NCBI GenBank assembly: GCA_016784105.1
Contig: JADHVG010000007.1
Location: forward strand, 1 to 37,160
Direction of reading: 5' to 3'
Source: Candidatus Woesearchaeota archaeon
GTDB taxonomy: Archaea > Nanobdellota > Nanobdellia > Woesearchaeales > GW2011-AR4
Length of the DNA: 37,160 nt
In this document: piece by piece, positions 4,135 to 27,952 of the stretch
Layout of the letters: each line of letters opens with the position of its first letter
Numbering within the stretch: position 1 is the stretch's first letter
Notes under the pieces: model-generated
Told to the model about the DNA's origin: nothing
Database searches by the model: none
The model's input: only the letters and a program-made list of their open reading frames with translations
Program-made: the position numbers and the translations under genes

Positions 4135-5092
4135 CTTTCTCCTTAGCATTCTTGTACGTTGTCCAGACAGTCCGCTCATCACGCTGCATGAGCAGAGCTA
4201 TGTCATGGTACGAGATATTGAGAGAATCTTTGAGGAAAAGGATGATAGAGGAAGACATTCCCAAGTGGGGTTTTAGTGCTGACACTGGGATTAACTTGTC
4301 AGAAGAAAATTCTAGTTTGGAAGCTTTTGAAGAAGAGTAGGAATTCCAAATACTAGCATACTCTTTTTTTAGGAGTGAAGAAATTTTTGAGATGCTTAAT
4401 GAATAATTTTCTTTAAGGAATTTTACAACAGATTTTGTTGTGCTAAGATCTTCCGAGAATATGTCCGCAGGAATGAAATACGAATCTTCTAACTCAGAGA
4501 TTATGGAAACTAAAGGAAATTTCGAAAGTAGAGTATGGAAATTGATGTAGATTTTAGAAATATCGACATAGTTTTTTTCTTGTTGCTTTGTTTCTGCTTT
4601 CTTGTATGTTGTCCAGATAGTTCTCTGGTCTCTTTCCAAGATTCTTGCGATTTCAGAATATTTTAGGTTTAATTCTTCTTTGAGATATTTTACAAGATTC
4701 TCTAGGACACTCAAGTTTTCGTTTCTCAAAATGTAAGAAGGTATGAAGAACTTGGGTTTTTTCTTGAAAATAATTTGTTTCTTTTTGCTTTGATTGTAAG
4801 CATACCAGACATTTTTGTTGGTCTTTCCTAAGACGAGAGAGGCTTCTTTTATTGACAAAGAGCAGTCTTCTATCAAGTATTTAGAAATAGCTTCTAATGC
4901 GGACAGCTTTTTTGAGAAGATGAAATCCGGAAGAAAAAGTTCTTTTTTTTGAAAAATTAGAGAAGGATCAGGATACTTTTTCTTCAGTTCTTCATATTTT
5001 GGCTTTATTCTAGAGAAATAGGTGTTTTTTTGGAGCTTGCGTCTACTTAAAACTAGATTTTTCTCAGTATTTTCACTATTTTTACTGAACAT
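4127..5092 (-). CDS. Protein of four tandem HTH-like repeats (putative DNA-binding regulator)
   Basis: 321-aa ORF; four about 70-aa units each ending in helix pairs such as LVKYLKEELNLKYSEIARILERDQRTIWTTYKKA. Confidence 0.75.
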   Translation of the reverse strand: MFSKNSENTEKNLVLSRRKLQKNTYFSRIKPKYEELKKKYPDPSLIFQKKELFLPDFIFSKKLSALEAISKYLIEDCSLSIKEASLVLGKTNKNVWYAYNQSKKKQIIFKKKPKFFIPSYILRNENLSVLENLVKYLKEELNLKYSEIARILERDQRTIWTTYKKAETKQQEKNYVDISKIYINFHTLLSKFPLVSIISELEDSYFIPADIFSEDLSTTKSVVKFLKENYSLSISKISSLLKKEYASIWNSYSSSKASKLEFSSDKLIPVSALKPHLGMSSSIILFLKDSLNISYHDIALLMQRDERTVWTTYKNAKEKDE

Positions 5093-5114
5093 TTATCTAT
5101 CTAATTGAGTAATA

Positions 5115-5205
5115 TTTCTAGTTATATAAGTAACTCTTTAAATATTTTGTGCAAGAACTAGCAGAAATAAACCATTTTAAGTATTTTTTCTAGTTATATA
5201 AGTAA
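5115..5205. repeat. Two perfect 19-bp direct repeats TTTCTAGTTATATAAGTAA (5115-5133, 5187-5205)
   Basis: Read directly; both contain a TATA-like core upstream of the 4xHTH gene. Confidence 0.8.
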
Positions 5206-5251
5206 TTAGTATAAATAAGTTTCTTTTTATTAGCAATATCTAATTGCAATC

Positions 5252-5650
5252 CTCACTTTAGCTTACTAAACCAGCTATTTGTGGGCATTATCCCCCATAA
5301 CCCACATCCAATCTACTGAAATAGTGAGTTTTTAGGGCTTATATCCTAAAAACAATCTAAAAAGATATGGTGCCTAAACTCACATTTTAGAATAACTTAG
5401 AGTATTTCGGCTTGAACGGCTAGATCCCTTCACTGACCCTCACTTTTAGTTTTTGGAAATAAATTTAGTATAGATTAGCATAAAACTGGCCTTTTTAGTG
5501 TATTTTAGAGAGCTATCAAGATACCTAAAAAATAAGGCTTTTTGTGATCTCATTTTAGCTGAAAATATGCTATTTTTTGATTGTTTTTTGTGATGGGATT
5601 TTTTTATGGTTTTTCTTTTGCTATACTCACTAGTTGAACTCTCACTTTTC
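5252..5650 (-). repeat. Cluster of CTCACTTTT motifs (AAAAGTGAG on minus strand)
   Basis: CTCACTTT(T) at 5252, 5439, 5641; variants CTCACATTTT 5379 and CTCATTTT 5549. TGAACTCTCACTTTTC at 5635-5650 is the exact reverse complement of the 16-mer at 13633 and 13695. Confidence 0.7.
5280..5353. other. Two adjacent hairpins in intergenic DNA
   Basis: TGTGGG(5280-5285)/CCCACA(5301-5306) with inner TTAT/ATAA; GTTTTTAGG(5328-5336)/CCTAAAAAC(5345-5353). Confidence 0.55.
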
Positions 5651-6794: not shown

Positions 6795-7415
6795 CTCGTT
6801 AAAAGTCCAGTTTCTATCCGTTTTTCCGAACCATCCTTCTCTAACTTCAGTAAGATCATATTGGTCAAATTTAGAGATAACAATATTAGCACCCCTAGCC
6901 ACTGGTTGTTTTCCAACATCTACAGTTCTGGGCTGTTTTAGTTCACTTCTCAAATAGCTTCCAGAAGGCATATCATCTCTTTCATTCTTCCCAACATTAG
7001 CGACGAAATTTTCCCCTACCACCAAAATAGGAGTTTCATATCCATACGTTTCTTGAAGCGCTGTAACAGTATCTCTAGCATATCCCTCATTCAAGTAAGG
7101 AACTATCAGAATTGGATTTTTTTTGGACCATCTTGTGTCTTTTCTTTCTTCTACTGCTTCATCCAGCGATAGATGGTGTAGGTCATAGGTTGTATCTCCG
7201 ATAAGCACCTCGGATTCAGAATGATTGAGCAATTCAGATTCTGGAGGATTCTCATCTAAAGTCGCATACCTATCGATGAAATACAAACTGGGATTTTGTT
7301 TTAATTTTAGTACTCTTCCAGATGGAGAAGAATCGTTTGCCGATGTAGAATGAGGCGTGAGTCTCTCTTCGAGATTCTTTGCTCCGTTTACGTTTGTGCT
7401 TCTGGGTTTAAGCAT
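6780..7415 (-). CDS. Hypothetical protein
   Basis: 211-aa ORF with ordinary composition; convergent with the 6441..6794 gene. Confidence 0.6.
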   Translation of the reverse strand: MLKPRSTNVNGAKNLEERLTPHSTSANDSSPSGRVLKLKQNPSLYFIDRYATLDENPPESELLNHSESEVLIGDTTYDLHHLSLDEAVEERKDTRWSKKNPILIVPYLNEGYARDTVTALQETYGYETPILVVGENFVANVGKNERDDMPSGSYLRSELKQPRTVDVGKQPVARGANIVISKFDQYDLTEVREGWFGKTDRNWTFNELFFV

Positions 7416-7581
7416 GATGTTATTGAAAACACTAGTTTTGAGCTTATTGATTCACTCATTTAAATACTTTTCTATTTTGTATACTGGTATAGTAATTTAG
7501 CTATTCGGTAGTTTGTAGAGGGAACAAAAAGAAAGCTTTTTAAATCAAAGAGATTCCTAGATAGTTATTCTTACGAATTAA

Positions 7582-7611
7582 GGGACGCTACCCAGGTTCT
7601 AACAACGTCCC
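7582..7611 (+). promoter_or_regulatory. Hairpin in putative 5' UTR of the 208-aa gene
   Basis: GGGACG(7582-7587)...CGTCCC(7606-7611) upstream of ATG 7657; TATA-like TTTTTAAAT near 7534. Confidence 0.4.
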
Positions 7612-7656
7612 AAAAAAGAGCGATACTACAAAACAACAAGATTCTGTTATGTAAAA

Positions 7657-8283
7657 ATGGAAATAAGCCACGCAATAAACAGCATGATGCACGTGCTTCC
7701 TGAACAGGGAGAGCTCATAGACCTAGAAGGAAAACTATCATCCTTAAAACAAGTTTATGAAATACTGAAAGACGAAAATAGCGGAGCTTCCTTTGAATTC
7801 AGAGATCCTACCGGGAAGAGATTAGGCTATGCTACTGAGATGAATCCTGGAAAAAGTTATGGTCACGATCTAGTCTATGCGTTCTTGGAAGCAGGAGCTG
7901 AATTAACAGGATATATCACCAAACAAGGTCTTCCTCATGGAATTGACATGGAAGTTGCAAGACTATTCTTATCAGAAACCCAATTTAATCCTGATTCAGG
8001 ACTTGATCCAAAAACTTTTAATGAAGGAATCAGCGCAAAAATCTACGATAAAAAAGATTTATGGCACAATAGAAACTTATGGCAAGACTTTACCAGCACA
8101 TACCTAGATCAAGAAAACAGGATGAATCCTACCCTTTTAGGAAAAGGAATTGTGCTTTTGAATGGCTCACAAGATCTAACCGGAGCATTAAACAAAGCGA
8201 TAACCCAAGCAGGATTTGACCCAAAACAAATCGGAGACTATGATGTTGCTGTTTCCCCAATAAAAAAACAAATTGTTTACTGA
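7657..8283 (+). CDS. Hypothetical protein
   Basis: 208-aa ORF, coding-like composition; no family recognised. Confidence 0.7.
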   Translation: MEISHAINSMMHVLPEQGELIDLEGKLSSLKQVYEILKDENSGASFEFRDPTGKRLGYATEMNPGKSYGHDLVYAFLEAGAELTGYITKQGLPHGIDMEVARLFLSETQFNPDSGLDPKTFNEGISAKIYDKKDLWHNRNLWQDFTSTYLDQENRMNPTLLGKGIVLLNGSQDLTGALNKAITQAGFDPKQIGDYDVAVSPIKKQIVY

Positions 8284-9349: not shown

Positions 9350-9907
9350 ATGAAAATTAAAATATTATCATTCGTATTTCTCGTCATTAGTTTGCTTATT
9401 GTTAGCGCTTGTTCAAACCAAGTTGCTAATGAGCCTGCAAAAAAAATTCCAAAGCCGTGCACAGCAGATTGGAATCCTGTCTGCGGAGTTGATGGAGTTA
9501 CATACAGTAATAAGTGCAGTGCAGGAGATATCAAAATTTCTTATGAATGGGAATGCGAAAGCGATAATCAAAATTCATGTGGGGATTTAGGGGGAAATTG
9601 GATTGATGACTCGAATGAATGCGAAGACATTTCGCAGCAAAATTGCGAAGCTTTAGGTGGGGAATTTGATGAGTGTGCTTCAGCATGTAGAAATGACCCA
9701 AATGCAGAAATATGCACCGCACAGTGTGTCCCACTCTGTAAGTTCAAAGAAGCTGCACATGTTTGCACAGAAGAAGAAAAAATGAACCAGATCTGCACAA
9801 GAGAATACATCCCCGTGTGTGGCAGCGATGAGGTTACCTATCCAACAGGATGTACGGCTTGCGCTGCTGGCGTAGATTCTTGGACAGAAGGTGAATGTCC
9901 TAGCTAA
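9350..9907 (+). CDS. Lipoprotein with two Kazal-like domains flanking a Cys-rich module
   Basis: Lipobox VSACSNQ; CTADWNPVCGVDGVTYSNKC and CTREYIPVCGSDEVTYPTGC. Confidence 0.88.
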   Translation: MKIKILSFVFLVISLLIVSACSNQVANEPAKKIPKPCTADWNPVCGVDGVTYSNKCSAGDIKISYEWECESDNQNSCGDLGGNWIDDSNECEDISQQNCEALGGEFDECASACRNDPNAEICTAQCVPLCKFKEAAHVCTEEEKMNQICTREYIPVCGSDEVTYPTGCTACAAGVDSWTEGECPS

Positions 9908-10181: not shown

Positions 10182-10496
10182 ATGTTATATGACCCAAAGA
10201 AAATAGGGGTAGAAATCACAGATATAGTCCAAAATGCTATTACAACCGGTTCTGCTCCAGTGGAAATAGGACTGGTTAACTTAAGTAACAGTGGTAGTGT
10301 GATTAAAGATAAATCATCCAACCTTGGATGGGAGATTTATGCAAAACCTGGAGAAGGACCAGAACTTAGAGTGGTTGTTCATTTTTCTGAAGCTTTTAAC
10401 ACATATTCAAAACTTAGAAGTAGATTTAAGGAATGGGGTATTGAAACGCAAAAAGGAAGATACGATTTCATAATGGATATTCCAGAAAATGATTGA
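10182..10496 (+). CDS. Hypothetical protein in operon with recombinase
   Basis: ORF track starts at TTG 10161; ATG 10182 lies about 25 nt after TATA-like TTTATATT (10154-10161). Overlaps the recombinase gene by 8 bp. Confidence 0.65.
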   Translation: MLYDPKKIGVEITDIVQNAITTGSAPVEIGLVNLSNSGSVIKDKSSNLGWEIYAKPGEGPELRVVVHFSEAFNTYSKLRSRFKEWGIETQKGRYDFIMDIPEND

Positions 10497-11304
10497 AAAA
10501 CTGCAAACAGAACTCAAGATAAGAGGATTTAGTAAACAAACAATTAACTCTTATACTTTTCACAATACCAACTTCTTAGAATTTATTGATAAAAAACCGG
10601 AAGATGTGCTGAAAGATGATATCAAAGCATACATGGCCCATCTGATGTCAGAAAGAGGCCTTAAACCAAGTTCAGTAAGCCTAGCAATGAGTTCTTTGCG
10701 TTTTTTGTATGACGAAATGCTCGGGAAAGGTTTATTTGTAGGAATAAAGATGCCAAAACTAGAAAAAAAGCTTCCAATGGTCCTCACCAAAGCAGAAATC
10801 AAGCAACTTATTGAAATTATAGACAACCCTAAACATAAGTTACTGGTAAAAATGTTATATTCTTCTGGATTAAGAGTATCGGAATGTGTAAATCTTAAGG
10901 TAAAACATCTTGATCTGGAAGACAAATTCGGGTTTGTTAAAGCAGGTAAAGGAAACAAAGACCGGAACTTCATAATCTCAGGAGATCTAATACCCACTAT
11001 CAATTCCTACCTTAATGAAAGAAAAAATGAATCGAAATACTTGTTCAATGTTAAAGATAAAGCTCTAAGTACAAGACAAGCCCAAAGAATAGTAGGGGAT
11101 GCAGCCAAGAAGGCAGGAATCAAGAAAAGAGTGTTTTGTCATGCTTTGAGGAGCAGCTTCGCAACACACTTACTGGAATCAGGGACCGATATAAGGATAA
11201 TACAAGAACTGCTAGGGCATGCGAATCTGGCAACTACTCAAAGGTATACACAAGTAAGTAAAGAACAACTACGGAAAGTAAGAAGTCCGCTAGATGATTT
11301 ATAA
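10489..11304 (+). CDS. Tyrosine recombinase, XerA/XerD-like
   Basis: 271 aa with catalytic motifs SGLRVSE, HALRSSFATHLLESG, LGHANLATTQRYTQVS. Confidence 0.93.
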   Translation: MIEKLQTELKIRGFSKQTINSYTFHNTNFLEFIDKKPEDVLKDDIKAYMAHLMSERGLKPSSVSLAMSSLRFLYDEMLGKGLFVGIKMPKLEKKLPMVLTKAEIKQLIEIIDNPKHKLLVKMLYSSGLRVSECVNLKVKHLDLEDKFGFVKAGKGNKDRNFIISGDLIPTINSYLNERKNESKYLFNVKDKALSTRQAQRIVGDAAKKAGIKKRVFCHALRSSFATHLLESGTDIRIIQELLGHANLATTQRYTQVSKEQLRKVRSPLDDL

Positions 11305-11893: not shown

Positions 11894-12463
11894 TTAATTG
11901 AAATTAACGAGCTCTTTTTGCGCAGTATCTATCATCAATATGTTTTCCTTGGCTTGTAACCTCTTAAAATCAGGATTCAATTTCAGATAAGGTGCATTGT
12001 TCACATACCTCCTTATCAAAGGAATTCCTTTACCAACTAACCTGGAAATATACTCACTCACGATATAGCTCGGAAACCCGGTTTTCTTCTCAATGTCTAT
12101 ATGGGAAACAAGACCCTTTTCATCTTCTAAAGCATAAATAACAAGAAAAACATGCTGTTCAGATTTAGTTAAAGGCTCAATGTTAAAGCTTTGCTTCTCG
12201 ACGATAAAATTGCTATTGCTTTGTAGAAATAATTCAACACTTTCCAATCGTTCAGCAATCTTTTCGACCTTGTTGTGCAGTTCATCAACACAGCCATAAT
12301 TGGTCTGGATTTCGTCTGTGTTCTGGTTAATAGCTTCTAAGTGCTCATCCAGTTCGGTTTTAACTGTTTTTAGAGCTTCTTTGAGCTCAAAGTCACTCAT
12401 TTTTGGTTTTTTAGAGAAATAGCGCTTTCTCTCCTTAAAAAAATTGTCAAATATCTTAACCAC
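11894..12463 (-). CDS. Coiled-coil protein with C-terminal winged-HTH-like domain
   Basis: 189 aa; helical N-terminus, LVSHIDIEKKTGFPSYIVSEYISRLVGKGIPLIRRY. Confidence 0.7.
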   Translation of the reverse strand: MVKIFDNFFKERKRYFSKKPKMSDFELKEALKTVKTELDEHLEAINQNTDEIQTNYGCVDELHNKVEKIAERLESVELFLQSNSNFIVEKQSFNIEPLTKSEQHVFLVIYALEDEKGLVSHIDIEKKTGFPSYIVSEYISRLVGKGIPLIRRYVNNAPYLKLNPDFKRLQAKENILMIDTAQKELVNFN

Positions 12464-12525: not shown

Positions 12526-13170
12526 TTAATGCTGTTTCTGATGCTTATAGAGGTAATATTTTTGCTTTCCTCGTCGAGCAATACTTACTTCTGCTTGTTC
12601 TTCAAGCTCCTCCAGAATACGATAAAACGAGCTTTTAGAACACAAACCCTGATCAATAACTACCATTTCTTTGAGTTGTAAAGAGCTTATCTGACCATAT
12701 TTACGTATATAAGAAAATATTAAGTTTTTAACGTAATCCTTGGAATTTCGGGTTACTCTCTTCACAACTTTATCCCTGATTGTTGCTTTCCTTTGCTCTT
12801 CCAGCGTAGAAAGCCTTTTTTCTAACTCATATAGCTCCCGAGGTTTTTCTGCTGATTGAGTAGTCTGAGAAGGCTTTACGTGCATAGTGTCCATACGCTC
12901 ATTAAGCATCTTTATACGCTCCATCATGTTGTCAAAAGAATAATGGCTGTCAATAATTTTACGAATATCTTCAGGTCTTTTTGGAATGTAAGAAAGCTCT
13001 AATTGCAATTGTTTTATTGTATTTTCCTGCTGCATGTTTTTTTGGTACAAAAAATTAAGCCACTGAAAAATATTCTGAGTGTCTTTTTTAACATTTAGAA
13101 ATGACCTTTCAAGAAGCCTATGCAAATTGGATATTTTTTTGTCTGTTTTTGATCTTAATAAAGCGAACAT
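12526..13170 (-). CDS. Coiled-coil protein with C-terminal winged-HTH-like domain
   Basis: 214 aa; ...GQISSLQLKEMVVIDQGLCSKSSFYRILEELEEQAEVSIARRGKQKYYLY. Confidence 0.75.
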   Translation of the reverse strand: MFALLRSKTDKKISNLHRLLERSFLNVKKDTQNIFQWLNFLYQKNMQQENTIKQLQLELSYIPKRPEDIRKIIDSHYSFDNMMERIKMLNERMDTMHVKPSQTTQSAEKPRELYELEKRLSTLEEQRKATIRDKVVKRVTRNSKDYVKNLIFSYIRKYGQISSLQLKEMVVIDQGLCSKSSFYRILEELEEQAEVSIARRGKQKYYLYKHQKQH

Positions 13171-13215
13171 ATCTCAATTATTATTGCCTTTTTATTTAAA
13201 TTTTTTGATTTTTTT

Positions 13216-13348
13216 GGGAATATACTGGGACCAAATTAGGACTATTATGGAATTAATTGGGACTAAGTTATAGACGATAAATTAGATATTCTCAGGACTG
13301 ATCTGGGAATTTTATGGGAATTACTAGGGACAAAAATGGGAATAGAAA
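13216..13348. repeat. Degenerate 11-bp tandem repeat, about 12 units, core GGGA(A/C)T
   Basis: Unit starts 13216, 13227, 13238, 13249, 13259, 13272, 13284, 13294, 13305, 13316, 13327, 13338. Confidence 0.65.
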
Positions 13349-13506: not shown

Positions 13507-13999
13507 AAAAGTGAGCCAAAAAATTGTTAAAAAACAGACATTTTTAGATCAAAATAGCAGAATATAGGCTAAAAGTGAGAGTTAAAACCAGGTAAAAAAT
13601 AGGATAAATGGTCAAATAGGCCTGAAAAGGACGAAAAGTGAGAGTTCATATTGGAGAAATAGGCCAAAAATGGCTAAAATAGAGGCTAAATGATGAAAAG
13701 TGAGAGTTCAATAAGGTCGAAAAAGGCACTTGAGATGATACTATCTCGGCTTAAGGTGTTCCAAGACCCAAAAGTGAGACTTGAACAGTACCCTACTGAT
13801 CCGGAGATAGCAGCAGAGATACTGTGGAACATGCACATGCGCAAGGATATAGGAAAAGTGAGTGTTGATCTGGGGTGTGGGACTGGGATGTTGGGCATAG
13901 GTATGCTGTTATTAGCAAAAGTGAGAGTTTTCATGATTGATATGGATGAAGACGCACTAAAAGTAGCTAAAGAGAACCTTGCAACAGTGGAAAGTGAGT
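13507..13999 (+). repeat. Array of eight (A)AAAGTGAG motifs extending from non-coding DNA into the downstream gene
   Basis: GTGAG G positions 13511, 13575, 13638, 13700, 13774, 13858, 13921, 13994; extended form GAAAAGTGAGAGTTCA at 13633 and 13695. Confidence 0.8.
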
Positions 14000-14334
14000 A
14001 TACTCTGCTTGGTGAAGCTGTTTTTGAGTGCAAGGATGTTGCTGATTTCGATAAAAAAGTTGATGTTGTCGTCGAGAATCCACCTTTCGGGATTAAAAAA
14101 AAGAACGCAGACAAAGTTTTTTTGGAGAAAGCTTTTTCGCTTTCCGATGTTGTTTATAGCTTCCACATGTCCGAAACCAAAGAGTTTATTGAAAAATTCT
14201 CGTCGAGAAATGGCTTTAAGATAACAGATAGGTGGGATTTTAACTTCCCTCTAAAGGCAACATATTTCTTTCATCGGAAGAAAATTGAAAGAGTTCCGGT
14301 TAGCTGTTTTAGATTTAAGAGAATAAAAGAATAA
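13690..14334 (+). CDS. METTL5-like N6-adenine RNA methyltransferase family protein
   Basis: KVRLEQYPTDPEIAAEILW, VDLGCGTGMLGIG, VVENPPFG. Confidence 0.88.
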   Translation: MMKSESSIRSKKALEMILSRLKVFQDPKVRLEQYPTDPEIAAEILWNMHMRKDIGKVSVDLGCGTGMLGIGMLLLAKVRVFMIDMDEDALKVAKENLATVESEYTLLGEAVFECKDVADFDKKVDVVVENPPFGIKKKNADKVFLEKAFSLSDVVYSFHMSETKEFIEKFSSRNGFKITDRWDFNFPLKATYFFHRKKIERVPVSCFRFKRIKE

Positions 14335-24412: not shown

Positions 24413-27400
24413 ATGGAAGAGCAAGTGCAAGTGACGGTTCCAGCATCAAAGGGAACAAAAATAAACAAGATAGTGATGAATGGCTTCAAAAGCTTTGCAA
24501 AACACACAGAACTACTTCTCAATGATTCATTCAATTGTGTTTTAGGACCAAACGGTTCTGGAAAGAGCAACGTGATGGACGCACTGTGTTTCGTTCTAGG
24601 GAAAAGTTCTGCAAAATCACTAAGAGCAGAAAAAAGTTCTAATCTGATTTATAATGGCGGGAAAGCAAAAAAACCTGCAAAACATGGAGAAGTCTCAATC
24701 TATTTTGATAACACAACAAAAATATTCCCCACAGAAGATGCAGAAGTAAAAATCTCAAGAATTGTTCGTCAATCTGGCCAATCAGTATACAAAATAAATG
24801 ATGAAACAAGAACAAGACAAGAAATACTTGAACTACTAGGAATTGCGCGCATAAACCCAGATGCTTACAACATAATTCTTCAAGGAGACATCGTAAAATT
24901 AGTGGAAATGAACCCTAACGATAGAAGAGAACTAATAGGAGAAATAGCAGGAATTTCCATCTATGAAGAAAAAAGAGATAAAGCAATAAAAGAACTAGGA
25001 AAAGTTGATGAAAGACTCAAGGAAACAGAAATAGTTCTAGCGGAAAGAAATACCTACCTAAAAGAATTGCGAAAAGATAGAGATCAAGCTCTAAAGTACA
25101 AAGAGATGAATGAGAAAGTAAAAATAAACAAGGCTTCCCACCTAAAGCTGCAGATAGACAGAAAAACAAAAGAGAGAAATAATTTACAAGAAAAACTTAA
25201 TTCTTCCAAAAGCGAACTTGAAAAAGTAAACAACAAGATAGAAGAAATACGAACTGATAACAAGAAAAAAAGAGAAGAAATAGACAACATAACTCACGAG
25301 ATAGAAGAGAAAGGAGAAGTTGAACAAGTAAAGCTAAACAAAGAAGTGGAGCATCTGAAGATAGAACTTACCAAAAAAAACTCTAGGACGGAAGCGTTAA
25401 GGAATGAACTCTCCAAAATTCAACAAAGACAAAATGACCTAAAAGAAGGGACAAAAGAAGTTCAAGAAAAAATAGATGAACTTGAAAAAGAAAAAAAAGC
25501 GATGCAGGAAGAAATAACAGAAAAGAAAAAAGAAAAAGAATTCACAAGCCAAAAAATATCACAATTCAAAGAAAAAAATAAGTTAGGAGATCTAGGCGGA
25601 ATAGAAAAAGAAATAGAAGAAATAGACCAAAAATCAGAAACACTTGAAAAAGAAGTCTTACAAGTACGAGAACAGCAACACAACCTCATAAGAGAAAAAG
25701 ACAAGATAGGCCATGATCTTTCCAACATAGATTCACAGATGGAAAAAGTTCTTGAAGTTGAAAAAGAACACAAAAAACAACTAGAAGAACTCAATAACAA
25801 TAGGGGAAACTTCAAAAATTCTACTCTGGACCTAAACAAAAAGATTGATGAAGATTCCAGCTTAGCTGCACAACTAGGAACTGCAAGAAGAAGAATAACA
25901 GACAAAGCAGAAGAACTAAGCAAATTACAAGCAAGACACGTTTCTACTCGTGAACTGAATTATGCAGACATAGCAATAAAAAGAGTGATGGACCTAAAGA
26001 AAAACAATCCCAATATTTACGGGACAGTATCAGAGTTAGGAAACGTTGAATCAAAATACTCACTTGCTCTGGAAATTGCAGCAGGACCAAAAATAAAGAG
26101 TATAGTTGTGGAAGATGATAAAACAGCATCAGAATGCATCAAATACCTCAAAAACAATAAATTAGGAGTTGTTACTTTTATTCCCTTGAACAAAATAAAA
26201 ACAAGACCTGCTGATGCTTCTACAAAAAAGTTCACTAATGAAGAAGGATGTCATGGCTTGGCAATAGATCTCGTAAGTTTTGATACTAAGTTCAAGAAAG
26301 CCTTTGAATTTGCCTTATCTGACACCATAGTTGTGGATAACATAGAAACCGCTCGCAAGTTTGGAATAGGCAGTGCAAAATTTGTAACTTTAGACGGAGA
26401 CCTATCCGGAAGAAGCGGAACCATGCAAGGAGGTTACAGACTAAAAAGAAAACAAAGCATGGGCTTCAAAGAAAAAGATATCACAGAAGGAATTGAAAAA
26501 CTTGAAGCAGAAATATCAGAATTAAAAAACACAATAAACGTGCTGGAAACAAGGAAACTGGAAAATGAAGAAGGCATAGTAAAATTAAGAACATTCAAAG
26601 CAAACCTAGAAGGAGAAATAATCAAAATGGAAAAATCCCTCCATTTGGATGATTCGGATCTGGAAGCATCTAAAGAGAAAAAAGGAAGTCTAGAATCATC
26701 CGGAAAAGCAATGGATGAAAAAATAAATCTTATTCAAGAAAAAATTTCAACATTAAATCAGGAACTTGCTCTTGTAAAAACAGAAAAACAAAAACTAAGA
26801 TCTTCAATTGCACAGTTGCGAAATCCTGCTTTACTGGCAGAACTAAATGCTTTTGAAGAAAAATTAAGACAATTAAATGAAGATCTGTTAAAAACTGATT
26901 CTGAAATAAAATTACGAGATACTCAATCCGAAAGCATATACAAAAATGAATTGGAAAAAACAGACAAAATAATAAAACAACTACAAAAAGATGAACAAGA
27001 ATTTTCCGAGGAGCTCAAAGGTTTAGAGCATAGCATAAAAGAAAATGAGAAAGAACTTGATGAAAAAGAAGTGCTTGCACAAGAGTTTTATGCCAAGTTC
27101 AAAGGACTATTCCAAAAAAGATCAGAAATAGACAAAGCAATCCAAGAAAATGATAACAAGATAGCAAAAGAACAGGAAGACAGCAGAGAAACGGAAATAA
27201 AAGCAAATACATTATCATTAAAACATGCAGAAATACAAGCGATAATAGCAGGATTAGAACAAGAATTCTCACAGTATGAAGGAGTAAAACTGGACTTAGA
27301 CAGGACAGAAGAACAACTGAGAAATGATATTCGTAAATTTGAAAGAATGAGAGAACAAATAGGCAGTGTTAACATGCGGGCTTTAGAAATCTATGAAGAT

Positions 27401-27952
27401 GTTGAGAAGGAATACAACAACTTAATGGAGAAAAAAGAACTTCTAGGAACAGAAAAAGAAGAAGTCATGAAAATGATGGAAGAAATAGAAGGAAAGAAAA
27501 AAGAACTATTTTTACAAGTATTTGAGGTTGTAAATGAAAATTTCCAGAAATTCTTCACCAGCTTAACAACCAAAGGCTCACAAGCAACGCTAGTCGTAGA
27601 GGATCCAGAAAATCCGTTTGAAGCCGGAGTCAGGATAAATGTTAAAATAACCGGGAGCAAATTCCTAGACATCAGAAGTTTATCTGGAGGAGAAAAAACC
27701 ATGACCGCACTAGCTTTCATCTTCGCAATACAAGAACATGAACCGGCATCTTTCTATGTGTTAGATGAAGTGGATGCCGCACTAGATAAACACAACTCAG
27801 AAAAATTTGCAAAACTTATAAGACAATACTCAGACAAAGCACAATACCTTATAATAAGTCATAACGATTCCGTTATCTCAGAAGCAGATACACTCTACGG
27901 TGTTAGCATGAACGAACATGGAATGTCACAAGTAGTAAGCTTGAAGATTTAA
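24413..27952 (+). CDS. smc: Chromosome segregation protein SMC
   Basis: 1179 aa; MNGFKSFAKHTEL, GPNGSGKSNVMDA, long coiled coils, hinge, LSGGEKTMTALAFIFAI, DEVDAALD. Confidence 0.97.
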   Translation: MEEQVQVTVPASKGTKINKIVMNGFKSFAKHTELLLNDSFNCVLGPNGSGKSNVMDALCFVLGKSSAKSLRAEKSSNLIYNGGKAKKPAKHGEVSIYFDNTTKIFPTEDAEVKISRIVRQSGQSVYKINDETRTRQEILELLGIARINPDAYNIILQGDIVKLVEMNPNDRRELIGEIAGISIYEEKRDKAIKELGKVDERLKETEIVLAERNTYLKELRKDRDQALKYKEMNEKVKINKASHLKLQIDRKTKERNNLQEKLNSSKSELEKVNNKIEEIRTDNKKKREEIDNITHEIEEKGEVEQVKLNKEVEHLKIELTKKNSRTEALRNELSKIQQRQNDLKEGTKEVQEKIDELEKEKKAMQEEITEKKKEKEFTSQKISQFKEKNKLGDLGGIEKEIEEIDQKSETLEKEVLQVREQQHNLIREKDKIGHDLSNIDSQMEKVLEVEKEHKKQLEELNNNRGNFKNSTLDLNKKIDEDSSLAAQLGTARRRITDKAEELSKLQARHVSTRELNYADIAIKRVMDLKKNNPNIYGTVSELGNVESKYSLALEIAAGPKIKSIVVEDDKTASECIKYLKNNKLGVVTFIPLNKIKTRPADASTKKFTNEEGCHGLAIDLVSFDTKFKKAFEFALSDTIVVDNIETARKFGIGSAKFVTLDGDLSGRSGTMQGGYRLKRKQSMGFKEKDITEGIEKLEAEISELKNTINVLETRKLENEEGIVKLRTFKANLEGEIIKMEKSLHLDDSDLEASKEKKGSLESSGKAMDEKINLIQEKISTLNQELALVKTEKQKLRSSIAQLRNPALLAELNAFEEKLRQLNEDLLKTDSEIKLRDTQSESIYKNELEKTDKIIKQLQKDEQEFSEELKGLEHSIKENEKELDEKEVLAQEFYAKFKGLFQKRSEIDKAIQENDNKIAKEQEDSRETEIKANTLSLKHAEIQAIIAGLEQEFSQYEGVKLDLDRTEEQLRNDIRKFERMREQIGSVNMRALEIYEDVEKEYNNLMEKKELLGTEKEEVMKMMEEIEGKKKELFLQVFEVVNENFQKFFTSLTTKGSQATLVVEDPENPFEAGVRINVKITGSKFLDIRSLSGGEKTMTALAFIFAIQEHEPASFYVLDEVDAALDKHNSEKFAKLIRQYSDKAQYLIISHNDSVISEADTLYGVSMNEHGMSQVVSLKI

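Follow-up and report, generated by a model that had tools for sequence, protein, structure and literature searches.

A helically phased array of oriented motifs follows a winged-helix gene in Woesearchaeota and looks like a protein-loading site

The window analysed here, a 37,160-nt stretch of contig JADHVG010000007.1 from a Candidatus Woesearchaeota genome, holds two adjoining minus-strand genes, here called wHTH-A (12526–13170) and wHTH-B (11894–12463), which encode proteins predicted to combine a coiled coil with a winged helix, N-terminal and C-terminal respectively in wHTH-A. To their left lies a plus-strand gene for an Xer-type tyrosine recombinase (10489–11304), and to their right a plus-strand gene for a METTL5-like methyltransferase (13690–14334). 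An array of eight short motifs (M1) runs through the non-coding DNA upstream of METTL5 and on into the gene itself. The host assembly (G000) comprises 1.19 Mb in 71 contigs and is 83% complete; gene calls in the window and its relatives were mechanical, and genome-wide counts come from pattern searches and retrieved stretches of sequence. A gene for an SMC protein with SMC_N and SMC hinge domains is found at 24413–27952, about 10 kb from the array, a proximity that is not conserved because the two are about 110 kb apart in a related genome (G012). The window also encodes, at 9350–9907 of this archaeal genome, a protein with Kazal-type protease-inhibitor domains.

All eight M1 sites lie on the plus strand, with the first G of GTGAG at 13511, 13575, 13638, 13700, 13774, 13858, 13921 and 13994 and consecutive spacings of 64, 63, 62, 74, 84, 63 and 73 bp; positions, spacings and the single orientation are as given in the original prediction, which was made from the sequence alone. 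That prediction treated them as eight copies of one motif, which holds for seven exact copies of AAAAGTGAG, the eighth (13990–13998) being GAAAGTGAG. It also counted three or four copies as non-coding: three are upstream of METTL5 (13507–13515, AAAAGTGAG; 13571–13579 and 13634–13642, both AAAAGTGAGAGTT), and the fourth (13696–13704) starts 6 nt inside the reading frame that opens with the ATG at 13690. METTL5 hosts five sites, of which three have the predicted K-V-R/S reading (PKVR at 13770–13778, GKVS at 13854–13862 and AKVR at 13917–13925). The fourth and eighth are read in another codon phase, as K-S-E-S and E-S-E, which argues against a protein-level repeat.

The eight-site array is far beyond chance. 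Exact copies of AAAAGTGAG number 30 in the host genome, nine of them in the window, against nine for the reversed control, and AAAAGTGAGAGTT occurs five times, always within the window (four times in the array and once on the minus strand at 5637–5649). The proposed genome-wide scan found no other clustering of the motif in the host genome, as the prediction requires. Across the window, matches to the 9-mer with one mismatch showed no excess (23 versus 22.3 expected), so the signal is one of clustering, not of abundance.

The interval that separates the array from wHTH-A holds a second repeat family, the M2 tract (13215–13343, plus strand), made up of TGGGAAT/TGGGAC repeats that start at 13215, 13226, 13258, 13304, 13315 and 13337, several of them 11 or 22 bp apart. 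Relatives keep M2 at most wHTH-A loci as an 11-bp iteron array of TGGGA(C/A)T, with at least one 11-bp pair in 65 of 77 loci. Across loci the repeats were strongly enriched (AGTCCCA 164 versus 4 expected; ATTCCCA 256 versus 13 expected), and the 499 consecutive spacings of 6–120 bp peaked at 11 and 22 bp, 242 of them being exactly 11 bp. The wHTH-A loci of G048, G051, G039 and G037 carry AAGTGAG sites and no 11-bp pair, so the M1 and M2 families are separable. The same intergenic core holds a degenerate copy (13270–13282) of a palindrome, TTATCG(A/T)CGATAA, that was found about 80–390 bp upstream of wHTH-A in relatives (loci L172, L151, L147, L153, L188 and others). We also observed that TCGACGATAA recurs within nearby coding genes, namely RpoL, METTL5, wHTH-A and wHTH-B.

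A second M1 array (5252–5649, minus strand) lies in non-coding DNA upstream of a gene for a 4xHTH protein and consists of AAAAGTGAGAGTT (5637–5649), AAAAGTGAG (5439–5447) and TAAAGTGAG (5252–5260). Its orientation is opposite to that of the main array, and the two point outwards. Equivalents occur in many relatives, +2 to +6.6 kb from wHTH-A, with two to four forward motifs each and 98 of 114 sites in non-coding DNA; these right-hand clusters often include reverse-strand copies as well, and several are antisense to a flanking PAC2 gene. The 4xHTH protein had been put forward as a binding partner, but it has no match in 76 related loci and thus drops out as a general one. The second array, the intervening 11-bp tract and the association with wHTH-A described below all go beyond the original prediction.

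A scan of GTDB species genomes yielded 76 wHTH-A loci. Their contig titles name Woesearchaeota, Nanoarchaeota or related archaea in nearly all cases, with Patescibacteria and Aenigmatarchaeota appearing once each (titles as given, misbinning being possible). wHTH-B adjoins wHTH-A in all 76, METTL5 is near wHTH-A in 56, and an Xer-type recombinase gene lies within about 6 kb in 48. In several lineages wHTH-B is followed by a conserved gene of about 165 codons (7197–7691, minus strand, in locus L148 and equivalents) with no Pfam match. Among the 70 loci whose left flank spans 1.5 kb or more, the window included, the interval from −1700 to −250 of wHTH-A held at least three AAGTGAG copies on the strand opposite wHTH-A in 65 and at least two in 68. 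Polarity in this interval was nearly absolute, with 339 sites opposite wHTH-A versus two on the other strand. Density on the opposite strand rose to 6.5 per kb in the −1000 to −500 interval and was mostly 0–0.1 per kb beyond −2500. Motif pairs with a gap of 46–76 bp, searched in 60 related genomes, totalled 35, of which 26 were at the array locus and nine elsewhere, versus eight for the reversed control.

The array follows wHTH-A, not METTL5. The pair search also recovered arrays in three genomes in which METTL5 lies elsewhere or was not found (G044, G045 and G048), and all three adjoin genes for coiled-coil winged-helix homologues of wHTH-A. G048 is a natural experiment that separates the two genes: METTL5 and wHTH-B on its contig 4 are accompanied by a single stray reverse-strand copy (L049), and the distant wHTH-A locus on contig 2 carries the array. 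In the closed genome G044 the array sits between convergent genes for wHTH-A and a PPDK-domain protein; in G045 it partly covers an Nre gene on the antisense strand; and G043, G037 and G039 have sites 3′ of wHTH-A. G038 and G057 have weak wHTH-A homologues with no array there, so at long distance the linkage does not always hold. Autoregulation through METTL5 mRNA is rejected as a general case because arrays are kept without METTL5. Separately, the METTL5 protein had no relative in the viral contigs searched, and a viral origin was set aside.

Some loci without METTL5 have an RsmE-type neighbour instead (Pfam Methyltrans_RNA and PUA_4), and there the array lies in and beside the RsmE gene. Examples of RsmE-like genes in the place that METTL5 takes in other lineages were observed at 4497–5258 (minus strand) in L148, where the gene is between RpoL and the array, and at 4541–5293 (minus strand) in L146. 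METTL5 and RsmE are methyltransferases that act on neighbouring 16S rRNA positions, so a functional link is conceivable.

Inside METTL5 the motif is maintained at the nucleic acid level, as had been predicted. Codon-preserving shuffling of the window gene gave a mean of 0.50 motifs against the five observed, and none of 5000 shuffles reached five. In the 56 METTL5 genes near wHTH-A, 149 motifs were found in 34.5 kb versus a mean of 22 (maximum 30) after the same shuffling, the loci here being related and unthinned, so that counts are not independent. Both K-V-[RS] and [KEQ]-S-E contexts host sites: K-V-[RS] was spelled AA-GTG-AG in 63 of 71 cases, with GTG making up only 36% of valine codons, and [KEQ]-S-E was spelled A-AGT-GAG in 82 of 97 cases, where codon use predicts a fraction of 0.13. 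METTL5 orthologues in other genomes of the same family and order, at about 50–62% identity, have AAGTGAG upstream and at recurring internal positions, in differing codon phases and differing combinations of presence and absence, with few copies in their 1.5-kb flanks. The comparison of relatives called for earlier agrees, with gene and motifs kept together where wHTH-A adjoins and motifs lost where no clear wHTH-A does: METTL5 at 12 such loci had one motif in 8.1 kb, 'no clear wHTH-A' meaning no clear tblastn homologue beside METTL5 in genomes of which some are incomplete and several have a weak homologue elsewhere. The codon-use and shuffle results, together with this loss, indicate that selection acts on the nucleic acid. 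Chance, or amino-acid constraint on METTL5 combined with A-rich composition, would account for the one-mismatch 9-mer count at chance level in the window, but is refuted by the codon-shuffle controls, the motif loss without an adjoining wHTH-A, the non-coding copies and the strand polarity, and we give it practically no weight. Judged from sequence comparison, the locus appears to be a clear case of a helix-phased DNA architecture overriding the codon choice, and even the residues, of its host gene.

Helical phasing is evident in the spacings. Across the 70 loci, the distances between successive sites fall on a ladder of about 51, 62–64, 73–75, 84–85, 93–95, 104–105 and 115–117 bp, with near-empty gaps at 55–60, 77–80 and 88–91 bp. 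At a period of 10.5 bp the mean resultant length was 0.57 for all spacings (n = 168) and 0.51 for non-coding ones (n = 70, the coding split being based on ORFs of 110 codons or more), values that none of 20,000 simulations reached. When a single locus was kept for each wHTH-A cluster (45% identity, 17 clusters), non-coding spacings gave 0.47 (n = 38, simulated p = 0.00025). The distinct non-coding spacings alone, unweighted, showed weak phasing (p about 0.08). The best-fitting period was 10.7–11.05 bp, so 10.5 bp is not uniquely favoured. The same-face order first proposed for the window therefore extends over 70 loci, to non-coding sites alone and to the thinned clusters, and this phasing supports a double-stranded DNA target with protein–protein contacts along one face.

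Such phasing has no reason in RNA, and it weighs against a reading in which AAGUGAG repeats serve as binding or processing sites in the 5′ leader of METTL5, its coding RNA and flanking non-coding RNAs. Motifs that are sense within METTL5 and RsmE, and right-hand arrays in long non-coding stretches, would suit an RNA element; the frequent reverse-strand copies of those right-hand clusters, several antisense to PAC2, and the G045 sites antisense to Nre would not. No Rfam model matched at the array, which argues against a known RNA gene, and overall we regard an RNA-level element as very improbable.

Gene regulation is the main rival to a centromere-like or organising role. On this account, wHTH-A bound to the array would control its own divergent promoter together with the METTL5 or RsmE–RpoL operon. 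The array does lie upstream of wHTH-A and along the METTL5 or RsmE operon in most loci, it is co-directional with METTL5 or RsmE in most lineages and could include promoter elements, and the neighbouring 16S rRNA positions methylated by METTL5 and RsmE count in its favour. A promoter placement of sites is possible in many loci, but many sites are deep in coding sequence, with a reach of about 300 nt into METTL5 here and as much as about 590 nt among relatives. The array between convergent genes in G044, the antisense overlap with Nre in G045, the sites 3′ of wHTH-A in three genomes and a second array kilobases away also speak against an operator, and we consider an autoregulatory or operon operator somewhat unlikely. 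One cluster per genome, independence of the neighbouring gene, deep coding reach and phasing fit a nucleoprotein loading site and are more than a promoter operator usually needs.

The two winged-helix proteins are candidates for loading such a site. In the predicted structures, wHTH-A has a long helix at its N-terminus and a confidently modelled winged helix at its C-terminus, the part in between being less certain, and wHTH-B is a long coiled coil with a winged helix. Pfam returned no convincing curated family for either, and a PDB sequence search with their profiles found only coiled-coil and generic HTH matches. Foldseek listed many winged helices with weak, generic E-values, among them AspA for wHTH-B (E 0.003) as one of many. 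These fold matches may hint at a working mode, not at a family.

Several characterised partition systems share parts of this layout. AspA of the Sulfolobus plasmid pNOB8 is a winged-helix centromere-binding protein that has its site upstream of its own gene and spreads on DNA (PMC5120986). wHTH-A and wHTH-B resemble AspA-ParBA in pairing a winged-helix protein with a site upstream of its own gene, but AspA binds one 23-bp palindrome, whereas the sites here are asymmetric direct repeats; the aspA-parB-parA cassette was not found at the loci examined, and no ParB or ParA was recognised alongside. SegB of Sulfolobales has sites that cluster near its own gene and are mostly intragenic (PMC12284271). 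SegAB is thus alike in site layout, with a chromosomal archaeal DNA-binding protein whose sites are near its own gene and mostly inside genes, but SegB sites, unlike the direct repeats of M1 at one locus, are palindromes dispersed across the chromosome; among the wHTH-A/B neighbours examined there was no segA or ParA-like ATPase gene. TubR has a winged-helix fold, and in type III systems there is also TubY, a protein with an HTH and a long coiled coil (PMC5016525). TubZRC and ParMRC (tubC, and parC of R1) likewise place direct-repeat iterons beside the gene for a small DNA-binding protein, and M1 and M2 repeats adjoin wHTH-A, a DNA-binding candidate, in most loci. The 11-bp period of M2 resembles parC of R1. 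Unlike TubZRC and ParMRC, the M1/M2 locus is chromosomal, extends into coding genes, has a long array at 50–105 bp spacing besides the 11-bp tract, and has no recognised cytomotive NTPase alongside. KOPS of the FtsK-Xer system are also short, asymmetric, oriented motifs, and an Xer recombinase gene is nearby in many loci, but M1 motifs form clusters at a single locus, directed outwards, and are not spread along chromosome arms. No ParA-, ParM- or TubZ-like motor was recognised adjoining the array loci, where the neighbours are wHTH-B, Xer, and METTL5 or RsmE; the host assembly had no match to ParA-like AAA_31 at its 83% completeness, and some relatives have ParA-like genes.

An iteron or WhiP-like replication origin, acting beside or instead of a cdc6 origin, would likewise fit the iteron-like repeats of 11 bp, the AT-rich spacers and the presence of winged-helix proteins, and cdc6 shares a contig with the locus in G039 (about 33 kb away) and G048 (about 132 kb away). 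In closed G044, however, cumulative GC skew has its minimum around 700 kb, close to cdc6 at 765 kb; the array, at 438 kb in this one genome, is at neither the skew minimum nor the maximum, and G012 contig 4 shows no clear skew turn at the locus. Neither the place of cdc6 nor GC skew supports a primary replication origin, and an origin of this kind seems improbable. Chromosomal centromeres need not sit at the origin itself.

The reading we favour, at about even odds (roughly 50%), is a nucleoprotein site loaded by wHTH-A with a centromere-like or chromosome-organising role. The AAAAGTGAG copies would be double-stranded DNA sites for one sequence-specific complex, most likely of wHTH-A, and their shared orientation and spacing by whole helical turns would place bound subunits on one face, where they could oligomerise, bridge or wrap DNA. 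The array begins near the wHTH-A gene and extends outwards into METTL5, RsmE or non-coding DNA, with codons adapted to it. The array, its outward-facing counterpart and the 11-bp TGGGA(C/A)T tract would together form one large nucleoprotein site per chromosome, whose most likely role is that of a centromere-like loading and anchoring point for chromosome organisation or segregation. More tentatively, and short of an even chance, this could be the chromosomal centromere of Woesearchaeota, a partition or SMC-loading site in which two outward, helically phased arrays and an 11-bp iteron tract, served by a coiled-coil winged-helix pair outside curated families, overwrite the codons of an adjoining gene.

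In sum, two winged-helix genes that have not been studied adjoin what looks like a so far unrecognised site for loading protein onto the chromosome, possibly a centromere. Lineages without an adjoining wHTH-A gene provide built-in controls for the codon override. A literature search found nothing on chromosome segregation or organisation in Woesearchaeota, and for DPANN archaea, in which these processes are apparently undescribed, the locus supplies a defined DNA site and candidate proteins.
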